A DNA stretch of 64,000 nucleotides, taken from Polystyrenella longa. Its GTDB lineage: Bacteria > Planctomycetota > Planctomycetia > Planctomycetales > Planctomycetaceae. The translations under genes were made by a program, and so were the position numbers. The notes under the pieces were generated by a model. The model was not told where the DNA came from, did not search any database, and was given only the letters and a program-made list of their open reading frames with translations. Where the stretch lies: NCBI RefSeq assembly GCF_007750395.1, contig NZ_CP036281.1:3619001-3683000 (forward strand), in the 5' to 3' direction. Shown here piece by piece: positions 3 through 19,200 of this stretch (the first letter of the stretch is position 1; each line of letters begins with the position of its first letter).

Positions 3-1340
3 ATCGGTGTCTATGGCATGATGGCATCCTCCAGCGGAATCATTCACTCGCTCTGTTTCTTTATCCTCGGGGTAAAGCTGTGGAAGCTGGGACAGAAATA
101 CGGTTATAAAACACAAATTCAATACTTCCGTGATCGTCTCGACAGTGACAAAATCGGCCTCGTGCTCTTTCCCGTAATCGTCGGTTTAGTCATTCCTTAT
201 TTGCTCATCGGAGTGATGGCTTCGGGAACTGTTATTTTCAACACCACCCGCGGCGCTTTCCCGGACTTGTTTGAAGGTGGAGCGATTCCTAAGGAACTCG
301 CTTCCCTCGCTATTTGTTGTGTCGTGTTAGTTTACGTCTTCTTCGGCGGTATGCGTGGCACGGCGTGGGCGAACACATTCCAAACGCTTGTCTTTATGGT
401 GCTGGGGGTCATTACCTTCGTAACGATCTCTGCCAAACTAGGCGGAGTCACTGCGGCGAGCGAAGCGGTCATGGAACTCCATCCAGACAAGCTGGTAAGA
501 ACAAACATACCGAAGCTCCAATTCTTCACATACTTATTTATCCCGCTTTCCGTGGGAATGTTTCCGCACCTATTCCAACATTGGTTGACGGCACGCAGTG
601 CCAGTACCTTCAAATTGCCTGTTGTCGCACACCCACTTTTCATCATGATTGTCTGGGTCCCCTGCGTTTTGTTAGGAGTATGGGCGACTTCCATTATGAC
701 CGAAGATGGGCCGATGTTCGCTGAAAAGTTCAATGCTAATGCCGTGCTGGCCGTGATGGTGAGCAAAATGACGACGCCAACTTTGGCCGGTTTCTTAACC
801 GCCGGAATTCTGGCGGCCATTATGTCGTCGCTCGACAGTCAGTTCCTGTGCGTCGGTACCATCTTCACGGAAGACATGGTCGTTCACTACAAAGGTCGTG
901 ACAAAATTACCGACACTCAGGAAATCTGGTTGGCTCGTGGATTTATCGTGGCCATCGTCGCGTTGACTTATGTTCTTGCTCTCTTCCTGCAAGGGACACG
1001 AATCTTCTCACTCGCTGTCTGGTGCTTCAGTGGATTTTCCAGTCTCTTCCCATTGATTTTAGCGGCACTCTATTGGAAGCGGTTAACTAAAGCTGGTGCT
1101 TACGCCTGTGTCATCGCAGCCTTTGCATCCTGGCTGTATCTGTTCGCACAGGCGGACTTCGCAGGAAATCCGGACTACGTTCTGCAATTGAGTCTGGGTG
1201 GCGAAGAATACAAGATGATGCCCGTTGTGGGTATGATCGCCTGTTCGACTCTGGCGTTGGTGATCGTTTCACTGTTCACCAAACCACCGCGTAAAGAAAC
1301 ACTTGAGAAATTCTTCCCGGAGCAAACCACGTCAAAATAG
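3..1340 (+). CDS. sodium:solute symporter (SSS family), 5' truncated
   Basis: Integral membrane cotransporter that would couple uptake of a small solute to the sodium gradient. The frame is open to the left edge of the window, so the N-terminus is missing; about 445 residues remain. The visible part begins GVYGMMASSSGIIHS, a glycine/serine-rich helix start typical of SSS proteins, and continues through about ten hydrophobic segments, including a conserved-looking GFLTAGILAAIMSSLDSQ segment near residue 265. The last TM segment is followed by a short charged tail. The substrate cannot be told from the sequence. The thioesterase gene follows closely on the same strand. Confidence 0.85.
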   Translation: MGVYGMMASSSGIIHSLCFFILGVKLWKLGQKYGYKTQIQYFRDRLDSDKIGLVLFPVIVGLVIPYLLIGVMASGTVIFNTTRGAFPDLFEGGAIPKELASLAICCVVLVYVFFGGMRGTAWANTFQTLVFMVLGVITFVTISAKLGGVTAASEAVMELHPDKLVRTNIPKLQFFTYLFIPLSVGMFPHLFQHWLTARSASTFKLPVVAHPLFIMIVWVPCVLLGVWATSIMTEDGPMFAEKFNANAVLAVMVSKMTTPTLAGFLTAGILAAIMSSLDSQFLCVGTIFTEDMVVHYKGRDKITDTQEIWLARGFIVAIVALTYVLALFLQGTRIFSLAVWCFSGFSSLFPLILAALYWKRLTKAGAYACVIAAFASWLYLFAQADFAGNPDYVLQLSLGGEEYKMMPVVGMIACSTLALVIVSLFTKPPRKETLEKFFPEQTTSK

Positions 1341-16348: not shown

Positions 16349-17293
16349 TCAAGCCGATTGAGGTGCCTCGCGAAACCGAAGTTGCGGTTTTTCAATCGTC
16401 ACCTGCGTATGAGCAGGAACCGACTTCGTCAGTGAAACGGAAGCTCCAATCACGGAGTGGGCTCCGACCACTGTGTCTCCACCAAGTACCGTCGCGTTAG
16501 CATACAGCACGACATGTTCCTCGATCGTTGGATGTCGCTTCTGATCTCTTACGAGTCGACCTTCGTCATCGTGAGCGAAACTGAGTGCTCCCAATGTCAC
16601 ACCTTGATAAATCTTAACATACGAAGCAATCTCACAGGTCTCCCCGATCACAACACCAGTACCATGATCGATGAAGAAGTACGGACCGATATCCGCTCCC
16701 GGATGAATATCGATTCCCGTGTTCGCATGCGACCATTCTGCCAGTACGCGGGGAATCAGCGGGACATCGAGTTTATACAACTCGTGGGCGATACGATGAA
16801 TTGTAATCGCTTCGAGTCCCGGGTAGCAGAAGATGATCTCATCGATACTTTTCGCAGCCGGGTCGCCATCGTAGGCGGCCTGAGCGTCGCAATCGAGTAG
16901 ACGTCGAATACCGGGGAGACATTCCAAAAAGGCGAGTGCTTTCTTTTGCCCCAATCCTTCGAAATCCTGCTGCAGTTCCTCCTGGCATCCAACGGCATGT
17001 GTGAGTTGAAAATCGTGTCGCAACGCTCTTGCGATCTGTAATGTCAGTTTGTCATGCAATCCATCGATCAAATCACCGACATGATAAGTGATGTTACCAA
17101 TGTGCAGATTCTGGCGACGCCGATAACCGGGATAAATCACTTCCTTCAGATCCTGAGCAATCTCGATCACTGCTTCCGTACTGGGCAGCGGGCAATGTCC
17201 CAGGTGATTAATTCGATTCAGGTCGGTGTAAGTCGCAACCAGGGCGTCTGTCAAATCCGGTAATTGCTCTTTGCGGCGAAAGTCGGTAGCCAT
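16349..17293 (-). CDS. cysE: serine O-acetyltransferase (CysE/EpsC type)
   Basis: First committed enzyme of cysteine synthesis: L-serine + acetyl-CoA gives O-acetylserine. The 314-residue protein has a long helical N-domain and a C-terminal left-handed beta-helix of hexapeptide repeats beginning with [20 protein letters not shown] (active-site histidines) and [10 protein letters not shown]. The later [19 protein letters not shown] repeats complete the trimerisation face. The long N-domain fits the EpsC-type subgroup. ATG 17293 is preceded by AGAGAG at a normal distance. That site is perfectly complementary to a segment of a short upstream reading frame ending in four Cys codons (17387-17473), which suggests cysteine-controlled translation. 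A terminator lies downstream. Confidence 0.93.
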
Positions 17294-17298
17294 GGGTT

Positions 17299-17416
17299 CT
17301 CTCTGAGATTTGGTTAAGGCTTTTTAAGTTGCCTGTGGAAGGTGCAGCGTGAGTGTGACAGTCATCAAAACCAAGTAATGACGCCATCAACAACAGCAAC
17401 AACCTCCAACAGAGAG
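17299..17416 (-). promoter_or_regulatory. putative cysteine-responsive leader: RBS/anti-RBS pairing upstream of cysE
   Basis: On the minus strand CAGAGAG (17305-17299) contains the cysE Shine-Dalgarno. CTCTCTG (17416-17410) lies inside the upstream leader frame, starting 15 bases before its first Cys codon, and the two are perfectly complementary over seven bases. Pairing would hide the cysE ribosome-binding site. A ribosome paused at the Cys codons would cover CTCTCTG and free the site. A second, small hairpin (AGGC...GCCT) lies between them. The pairing is seen directly; the switch is inferred. Confidence 0.5.
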
Positions 17417-17473
17417 GGCTCCGAAGAGGATAGAACGCATGAGAACGGAATCGGTCGGTGAAGTGGTTTGCAT
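17387..17473 (-). CDS. short leader peptide ending in four consecutive cysteines
   Basis: A 28-codon reading frame on the cysE strand: it begins MQTTSPTDSVLMRS and ends SVGGCCCC followed by TGA. A good Shine-Dalgarno (GAGGTAA) sits 6-7 bases before the ATG at 17473. The stop lies 93 bases before the cysE start. Tandem codons for the pathway end product just upstream of the biosynthetic gene are the hallmark of ribosome-mediated attenuation; poly-Cys leader frames acting this way are known in mycobacteria. Here the codons are TGT TGC TGT TGT. An internal ATG could also start translation. The peptide itself probably has no function. The alternative is chance from a CAA-type simple repeat on the other strand, but the start, RBS and gene context argue against it. 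Confidence 0.6.
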   Translation of the reverse strand: MQTTSPTDSVLMRSILFGALSVGGCCCC

Positions 17474-17901
17474 CAGTATTACCTCGCTCGCAGAACGCCC
17501 TTCCTCTGAGTTGAGTTATCCCGAAACCAGAAAACACCGAGATGTGTCTCGTTCATTCTAGGTGTACGGGAAATGAAGGGTCAAGTTTTACGCTTCAAAT
17601 CGGCTATGCAGGTAGGTTCGGTTAAGCCGATCTGGTATAGGACACTGGTTCAACCAGAGGGTTCGCAGGGTTATTCGGGAGAGGGAAGATAGGGAGAGTA
17701 AATCGGGTTTTAACGCTCTGATTCTGGATTGGCGTCAACTCGTTCCGGCGACGATGTCGATATAGAAATGAAGGTTTCCACCACGCGTCTCAACTGGCAG
17801 GTACGAATAGAACGATTCGTTTGTACACAATCCTGCCACGGTAATTGTTCGACTTCTGGTTCACCGTTACCCGATTTCCGCCTCTATCGGCGTCCTGAAT
17901 A
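17474..17901. other. intergenic region between divergent cysE leader and HD-GYP gene
   Basis: About 430 bases with no further gene I can support. It should contain the promoter of the leader-cysE transcript (leftwards) and of the HD-GYP gene (rightwards). I looked for an S-box-like riboswitch and could not recognise one. Confidence 0.5.
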
Positions 17902-19200
17902 ATGAGCTCCACTTCCGAAACACCAATAAGTCCCAACCGCAGATCACCCGATGCTCAAGTTGAAGAACTGGATCATCAGCTGATTTCCATGCGTCAGGAA
18001 CTGCCGCGAGAAGAGCATCAGCAGCTTATTCACAAGTATCGGGAACTCCTACCGGTTTTCGTCGAATTACAGAGATGTTACGAAGAGATAGAGGGTTGCT
18101 TTGACTGTCCGCGAACGGTCACGGAACTTGAACAAGCCCGTCTACGCGAAGTTTTTGAAGTCATGCGACTTCTCGAACGAGAATTATTTCGGGTTGCTTA
18201 TCCTGAACCGAGCCTGGTCTCCGTTGAACCTCTGTCGCATCTGATCGAGCTTTGCGAACAGGAAATGGAGAAACTGTACTTCATTCTTAAACAGAGAAGT
18301 CAAATCAAGACGTACACCAAAGGCTGGTGGCGAGTCGTGAATGCCGCGCGCGATTCGAACAAAGCTGAAACGGATGCATTACTCTTTCTGACAAATCAAA
18401 TCATTCAGGACGTCAACAGAGCAGAACAGATTCTCGAAATCCTGCCTACGTCCCAACACCTGGCCATTCCCTGGTCAAGCCATTCCCTGCACGAACAATA
18501 TCCGTTTATTAATGGAGTTCTCGCTGCCCGGTTGATGGCGTATCTCGTTCCGCGTTTTCCGCATGGCAGTCAATATGTGGAACAGCTAACAGCGGCGGCA
18601 CTACTTCACGACACGGGGCTTCTCTCGCTACTGCACGGTTACCAGAAGAATGCTCGCGACCTTGCGATCAGCAATCCGACAGCGTTTAAGAAACACCCCT
18701 CTTACGGTGCCGTGGTCGCCGGGGTTTTCAAACGAATGCCAGTCACATTTCCGATGATCATCGCTCAACACCACGAGAGATTAAACGGAACGGGCTATCC
18801 CAATCGGCTCATTGATCGCAGTCTCCCGGCTCTCTCGAGGATGATGGCAATCGTCTGCCGAGTGGTCGACTTGATGACGGGCACGCTGTTTGCGCATACG
18901 CCCCCTGAGAATCCGAAAACTAAATCACAGACGCTGTCGCAAACGGTCAGTAAATTAAAACTCGAGGCACGACTGGGCGAACTCGACAAGCAGATGGTGG
19001 AACAGGTCATCCGGCTGTTGCAAGCGGAAGGGGGACTGGACCTCACTGCCGAAAGTGACGTCTTCGAAAAACAGGAATTACCGCTCGACGAAGAACTCCG
19101 ACAGGACGCGCCGCATTCACCCGTCCCCAGTATGGCTCCTACCCTGAGGCAACCGACGGTTAGCTCCTGGTCCTGGAAAAACCAGAATGCACATAGCTAA
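17902..19200 (+). CDS. HD-GYP domain protein
   Basis: Cytoplasmic protein of 432 residues. The N-terminal 180 residues are helical and charged with no domain I can name. The HD-GYP domain follows: HD at 236-237 (AALLHDTGLL), His265 (KKHPSYGA), HHE at 290-292 and GTGYP at 296-300. HD-GYP proteins typically hydrolyse cyclic-di-GMP. Two core positions differ from the consensus: HDTGL lacks the lysine of HDIGK, and HHERLNGTGYP has Asn where Asp is usual, so activity is uncertain. The C-terminus is a low-complexity tail. No receiver or sensor domain is recognisable. Confidence 0.8.
   Translation: MSSTSETPISPNRRSPDAQVEELDHQLISMRQELPREEHQQLIHKYRELLPVFVELQRCYEEIEGCFDCPRTVTELEQARLREVFEVMRLLERELFRVAYPEPSLVSVEPLSHLIELCEQEMEKLYFILKQRSQIKTYTKGWWRVVNAARDSNKAETDALLFLTNQIIQDVNRAEQILEILPTSQHLAIPWSSHSLHEQYPFINGVLAARLMAYLVPRFPHGSQYVEQLTAAALLHDTGLLSLLHGYQKNARDLAISNPTAFKKHPSYGAVVAGVFKRMPVTFPMIIAQHHERLNGTGYPNRLIDRSLPALSRMMAIVCRVVDLMTGTLFAHTPPENPKTKSQTLSQTVSKLKLEARLGELDKQMVEQVIRLLQAEGGLDLTAESDVFEKQELPLDEELRQDAPHSPVPSMAPTLRQPTVSSWSWKNQNAHS

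Follow-up and report, generated by a model that had tools for sequence, protein, structure and literature searches.

Leader peptides that end in a run of Cys codons have been reported in Mycobacterium and other Actinobacteria (PMC1262725; PMC4633059; Canestrari 2020, as cited in PMC13236596 and PMC9031893); the first-pass annotation of the locus studied here likewise stated that poly-Cys leaders are known in mycobacteria. For M. smegmatis, attenuation of translation by stalling has been reported. These systems share with our locus a short ORF with a terminal Cys run upstream of cysteine genes. The cys leaders described by Canestrari and by Shell, however, are leaderless and belong to Actinobacteria, whereas the planctomycete leader has its own Shine-Dalgarno sequence (SD) and lies before cysE. 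No conserved terminator hairpin was found for the mycobacterial cys leaders (PMC1262725), whereas most planctomycete members described below carry a hairpin in fixed register. A further relative in design is uORFC-8-2, an upstream ORF that combines conserved Cys codons in tandem with RNA stems; it controls cysS and ends in a U-run intrinsic terminator (PMC8632094), whereas the planctomycete element precedes cysE and has no U-tract. No cysteine leader described for Planctomycetota was met in a literature search of limited reach, with most subscription papers outside it, in agreement with the earlier statement that none was known from planctomycetes.

We analyzed a 64,000-nt stretch of the Polystyrenella longa genome, referred to as the window. 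The features relevant to cysE and its upstream region are as follows.

17555..17584, minus strand: promoter-like TTGACC-18-TAGAAT (10/12), from which a transcript would begin before the leader
17479..17485, minus strand: leader SD GAGGTAA, 5 nt ahead of the ATG, with GAGGT kept in the congener
17387..17473, minus strand: leader ORF of 28 codons, MQTTSPTDSVLMRSILFGALSVGGCCCC and stop, from ORF calls, with a GGCCCC-stop end
17410..17416, minus strand: CTCTCTG, candidate anti-SD segment, from complementarity, the congener and the predicted fold
17336..17407, minus strand: predicted long stem with the Cys codons (GGAGGU...ACCUUCC), from fold prediction
17390..17401, minus strand: four Cys codons TGT TGC TGT TGT, the presumed sensor
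17387..17389, minus strand: leader stop codon TGA
17356..17389, minus strand: candidate hairpin starting from the leader stop codon, UGAUGGCGUCA...UGAUGACUGUCA, z -1.3 alone
17299..17305, minus strand: CAGAGAG, cysE SD region and partner of CTCTCTG, from complementarity and the predicted fold
16349..17293, minus strand: cysE, serine O-acetyltransferase, 314 aa

The 28-codon frame of the first-pass annotation was recovered with its own GAGGTAA, four Cys codons and stop, and with 93 nt between the leader stop and the cysE ATG (17293); CTCTCTG and its complement CAGAGAG at the cysE SD were likewise where they had been placed. The arrangement is that of a short leader ORF with clustered Cys codons ahead of a biosynthetic gene for the same amino acid. 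In a profile search TIGR01172 was the best family for the cysE product (E=8e-47, under the equivalog cut-off), and, judged by gene order, cysE is monocistronic, with a convergent gene behind it and a divergent one ahead. This divergent neighbour (17902-19200, plus strand) matched NF053512, a c-di-GMP phosphodiesterase response regulator, weakly and below cut-off. The 6.1-Mb genome holds four strings of four Cys codons plus stop, and seven further matches end in TGG; by an arithmetic estimate, the chance that one C4-stop string lands in sense within 300 nt upstream of cysE is about 1e-4. To judge by its own SD, which the congener keeps, and by the promoter-like site upstream, the leader ORF is probably not leaderless; the promoter-like site (one found against 0.6 in shuffles) is not conserved in the congener.

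Output step apart, we consider it probable, at roughly 85%, that cysE in the window is preceded by a ribosome-mediated cysteine-sensing leader. A ribosome short of charged tRNA-Cys would wait on the leader Cys codons, its leading edge would melt or block the adjacent RNA, and cysE expression would rise; with ample cysteine the ribosome would complete the leader, the RNA would refold and cysE would stay low. Class-wide C-terminal Cys codons and conservation in the congener lend strong support, at the level of sequence, to the cysteine-sensing idea of the first-pass annotation. The only congener with cysE, genome G001 (same contig as MAG HKST-UBA56, L039), has a leader ending in LSVGGCCCCC and stop at the same -93 spacing to cysE. 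The leader SD, the start, TCTCTCTGT, CTCTCTG, the Cys codons and GAGAGA are kept and the spacer has diverged; for SD re-pairing these conserved islands are suggestive only, because conservation of an SD and of codons is expected in any case.

In the window the predicted fold places the Cys codons in the long stem and pairs CUCUCUG with CAGAGAG. The congener may keep the long-stem helix with a different sequence (GGGGUUG/CAACCUC), a comparison of two sequences of which neither beats shuffles. For the whole window leader the predicted fold had a z of -1.77, and 7 of 200 shuffles were equally good; the 7-nt complementarity beats 91% of mononucleotide-shuffled leaders, which is weak alone. Removing the part covered by a stalled ribosome lowered the predicted cost of opening the ribosome binding site (RBS) from 10.6 to 5.8 kcal/mol in the window and from 13.9 to 6.8 kcal/mol in the congener, an effect that was not significant against shuffled leaders (z 0.7 and 1.4, respectively). 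SD re-pairing is plausible in the window, given 7 bp that are largely kept in the congener and favoured by the predicted fold. That the Cys-region stem and the CUCUCUG:CAGAGAG helix together mask the cysE SD until a stalled ribosome opens it is a modelled scheme to which we give even odds. It has an analogue in the actinobacterial LEU element, where a leader Leu-codon run is predicted to pair with the leuA SD, although that element concerns another amino acid, a pseudoknot and another phylum (PMC1262725). The earlier proposal of attenuation through cysE SD re-pairing is therefore upheld in part: the predicted fold and RBS opening of the window speak for it, but neither significance against shuffles nor class-wide occurrence was found. 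Mutually exclusive structures were predicted in the window, the congener, L186, L205 and genus g39, and are not general across the class.

Among these lineages, helices far stronger than that of the window were found in L186 (9 bp between leader and SD, AUUCCCUCC/GGAGGGAAU, z 5.7) and in L205 (10 bp, GUCCUCACCA/UGGUGAGGAC), both located at the same place as the leader:SD pairing of the window; a leader/SD helix is also predicted in genus g39. RBS opening energy compared with shuffled leaders was significant in L186 and suggestive in L205, and the effect is not general. A loose RNA duplex scan of leader against RBS gave no excess over mismatched genomes, and a contiguous-helix scan of 48 leaders found leader:RBS pairing without overall excess and with a few strong outliers. 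In genus g47 (L032 and eight kin) we observed conserved long-range complementarity of UUGAACCGA, which lies within the leader ORF and 30 nt ahead of the first Cys codon, with UCGGUUCAA, immediately upstream of the cysE SD; most species retain its core, and no compensatory changes were seen. In the same genus, the blocks GAAAACATTGGTGAC and GGCCGGGCATC ahead of the leader ORF are near-invariant in nine species and are possibly a promoter or regulator site.

The first-pass annotation had suggested a search for poly-Cys frames upstream of planctomycete cysE, and this search was productive. At least three Cys in the last seven codons were found on the sense strand in 39 of 171 cysE upstream regions, against 0 on the antisense strand and 0.8 in dinucleotide shuffles; the 39/171 is not an unbiased prevalence, because the sample is weighted to window-like cysE (the regions closest to the window cysE plus a spread of relatives, with related genomes counted separately). 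No other amino acid stood out in the frame tails of the 171 regions. Further tails, each followed by the stop, read NCRCCCCC (L027), CYCRTCLCCC (the whole genus of L032 and kin) and RFCCRCCC (L035 and kin). Reading frames without a start-codon requirement revealed a broader form, C-x-C-x-x-P-[A/V/G]-stop, in many families, with ends such as GCGCPAPA, GCICTCPA, CRCTCPV and CVCRCPG before the stop. In all, a Cys-codon leader or hairpin element occurs in about eleven families (f1, f5, f6, f7, f9, f11, f12, f13, f14, f16 and f23). The tail search did not find the leader in the examined members of f2, f3, f4 and f15 or in several f1 genera, and many genomes from the family of the window (g54, g34 and others) likewise yielded no leader. 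On retention among close relatives, which the first-pass annotation had treated as decisive, the outcome is divided: the congener keeps the leader and largely the pairing, but in many same-family members no leader was found, and the leader is therefore dispensable.

At the nucleotide level the broader leader reads TGC-NNN-TGT-NNN-NNN-CCGG(N)-stop-(N)CCGG. The codons that follow the Cys codons make up the 5' strand of a GC hairpin, whose loop often contains the stop codon. Attenuators of the trp type have a comparable layout in segments 1:2, where the regulatory codons adjoin a hairpin holding or flanking the leader stop codon. The planctomycete element is like them in having regulatory codons beside a hairpin at the leader stop and unlike them in that the search turned up neither a 2:3 antiterminator partner nor a 3:4 terminator. 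It is present at about 30 planctomycete loci (for example L228:556-601, L189:574-621 and L043:1359-1406). Compared with shuffles, 29 of 48 leaders had the hairpin at a rank above 0.95 (KS p 5e-17), and its pairs exchange, as in GTCCGG/CCGGAC versus GCCCGG/CCGGGC and in CGACCGT/ACGGTCG of L199. The covariation score was 0.192 versus 0.101 in shuffles (1/500); cells paired and covariation score exceeded both shuffles and slid versions, the number of covarying pairs did not, and the alignment was selected on Cys tail and hairpin, so that its counts are not independent of this selection. Searching 397 whole genomes with the covariance model R1 placed all 21 best hits (E up to 8e-4) directly upstream of cysE. 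The cysE hits include eight genomes outside the training of R1 (G197, G255, G090, G337, G275, G327, G147 and, just below, G241), and these held-out hits all read CxCxxP[AV]-stop, for example CRCCCPA, CLCTCPA and CVCCCPV. We rejected an association of the element with other genes, as non-cysE hits of R1 appeared only at chance-level E values for 397 genomes. A T-box or another known Rfam family was ruled out, since Rfam covariance models gave no match at gathering for the window and seven loci and none for eight loci at E up to 1.

In all 47 elements, 9-15 nt separate the start of the stem from the position of the first conserved Cys codon (stem search window 9-25). In L180, L194, L250, L031 and L017 the stop codon has shifted downstream and the Cys codons and hairpin stay. 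Such a constant register of Cys codons and hairpin is as expected if the RNA reads ribosome position. The first conserved Cys codon is mostly TGC; the second (alignment A1 columns 7-9) is TGT in 27 of the 28 sequences having Cys there, which suggests selection on codon or nucleotide. The window leader itself is without the CCGG form and falls under threshold with R1, and its own hairpin at 17356..17389 is a possible counterpart of the class-wide one.

In the window the output would most likely lie at translation initiation, via the masked cysE SD. In most relatives it would probably act through the hairpin and the C-rich spacer, perhaps with a pause hairpin and Rho-dependent termination. With a footprint of the usual size, a ribosome held at the second Cys codon would extend into the 5' arm of the hairpin. 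Within the CCGG class we found no alternative pairing partner for the hairpin arms and no RBS masking. The 47 elements lack a U-tract on average (L209 is an exception), and an intrinsic terminator was therefore rejected. Also discarded were a frameshift past the leader stop, as the other frames are not consistently open, and an outer stem built by the Cys codons, which was not significant against shuffles. The spacer between leader and cysE is rich in C and poor in G (35% C and 23% G versus 29% and 28% at loci without leader). We tentatively propose, at a little short of even odds, that the class-wide C-x-C element, with its CCGG hairpin in fixed register, detects cysteine from where the ribosome stands and that its control of cysE involves neither intrinsic termination nor masking of the SD; in some lineages, that of the window among them, poly-Cys leaders that mask the SD directly would have taken its place.

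Another tentative possibility is attenuation at the level of transcription, in which the hairpin after the Cys codons makes RNA polymerase pause and keeps it in step with the ribosome, and Rho terminates within the C-rich spacer if no ribosome has stalled. The C-rich, G-poor spacer would suit Rho, although its composition is confounded by lineage. The missing U-tract leaves no intrinsic terminator, and in the CCGG class neither another partner for the hairpin arms nor sequestration of the RBS was seen; SD pairing is nevertheless predicted in the window, and how an upstream stall would stop Rho is unclear. A role of Rho was proposed earlier for the mycobacterial cys leaders (PMC1262725).

Arrest by the nascent peptide, with a C-x-C-x-x-P-A end halting the ribosome on free cysteine or another metabolite, seems improbable to us. 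Pro beside a stop can slow termination and the CxCxxP[AV]-stop end recurs, but Pro-Ala is accounted for by the CCGG stem, because CCG is invariant in the 30-sequence set and the next codon varies. Moreover, L199 and L178 keep the hairpin with other residues, the near-uniform TGT at the second Cys codon points to a nucleotide-level constraint, and the window leader ends in CCCC and stop. Even less probable is a functional small Cys-rich peptide for metal or redox binding that is merely co-transcribed with cysE: Cys-rich peptides can bind metals, yet outside its Cys residues the peptide shows no conservation across genera, the Cys residues themselves vary in number and spacing, the ORF usually ends right after the Cys codons or hairpin, and its position is tied to cysE. 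A chance ORF is hardly credible. Short ORFs are common and the 7-bp complementarity of the window lies within the chance range, but the sense-strand excess over antisense and shuffled sequence and the held-out R1 hits at cysE refute chance at the class level.

The ribosome-mediated cysteine-sensing leader would extend cysteine-sensing leader attenuation to Planctomycetota, at the committed step of cysteine synthesis. The analysis also gives a defined RNA element that has no entry in Rfam and comes in many natural variants; its sensor codons are retained, whereas its output seems to have shifted from one lineage to another.
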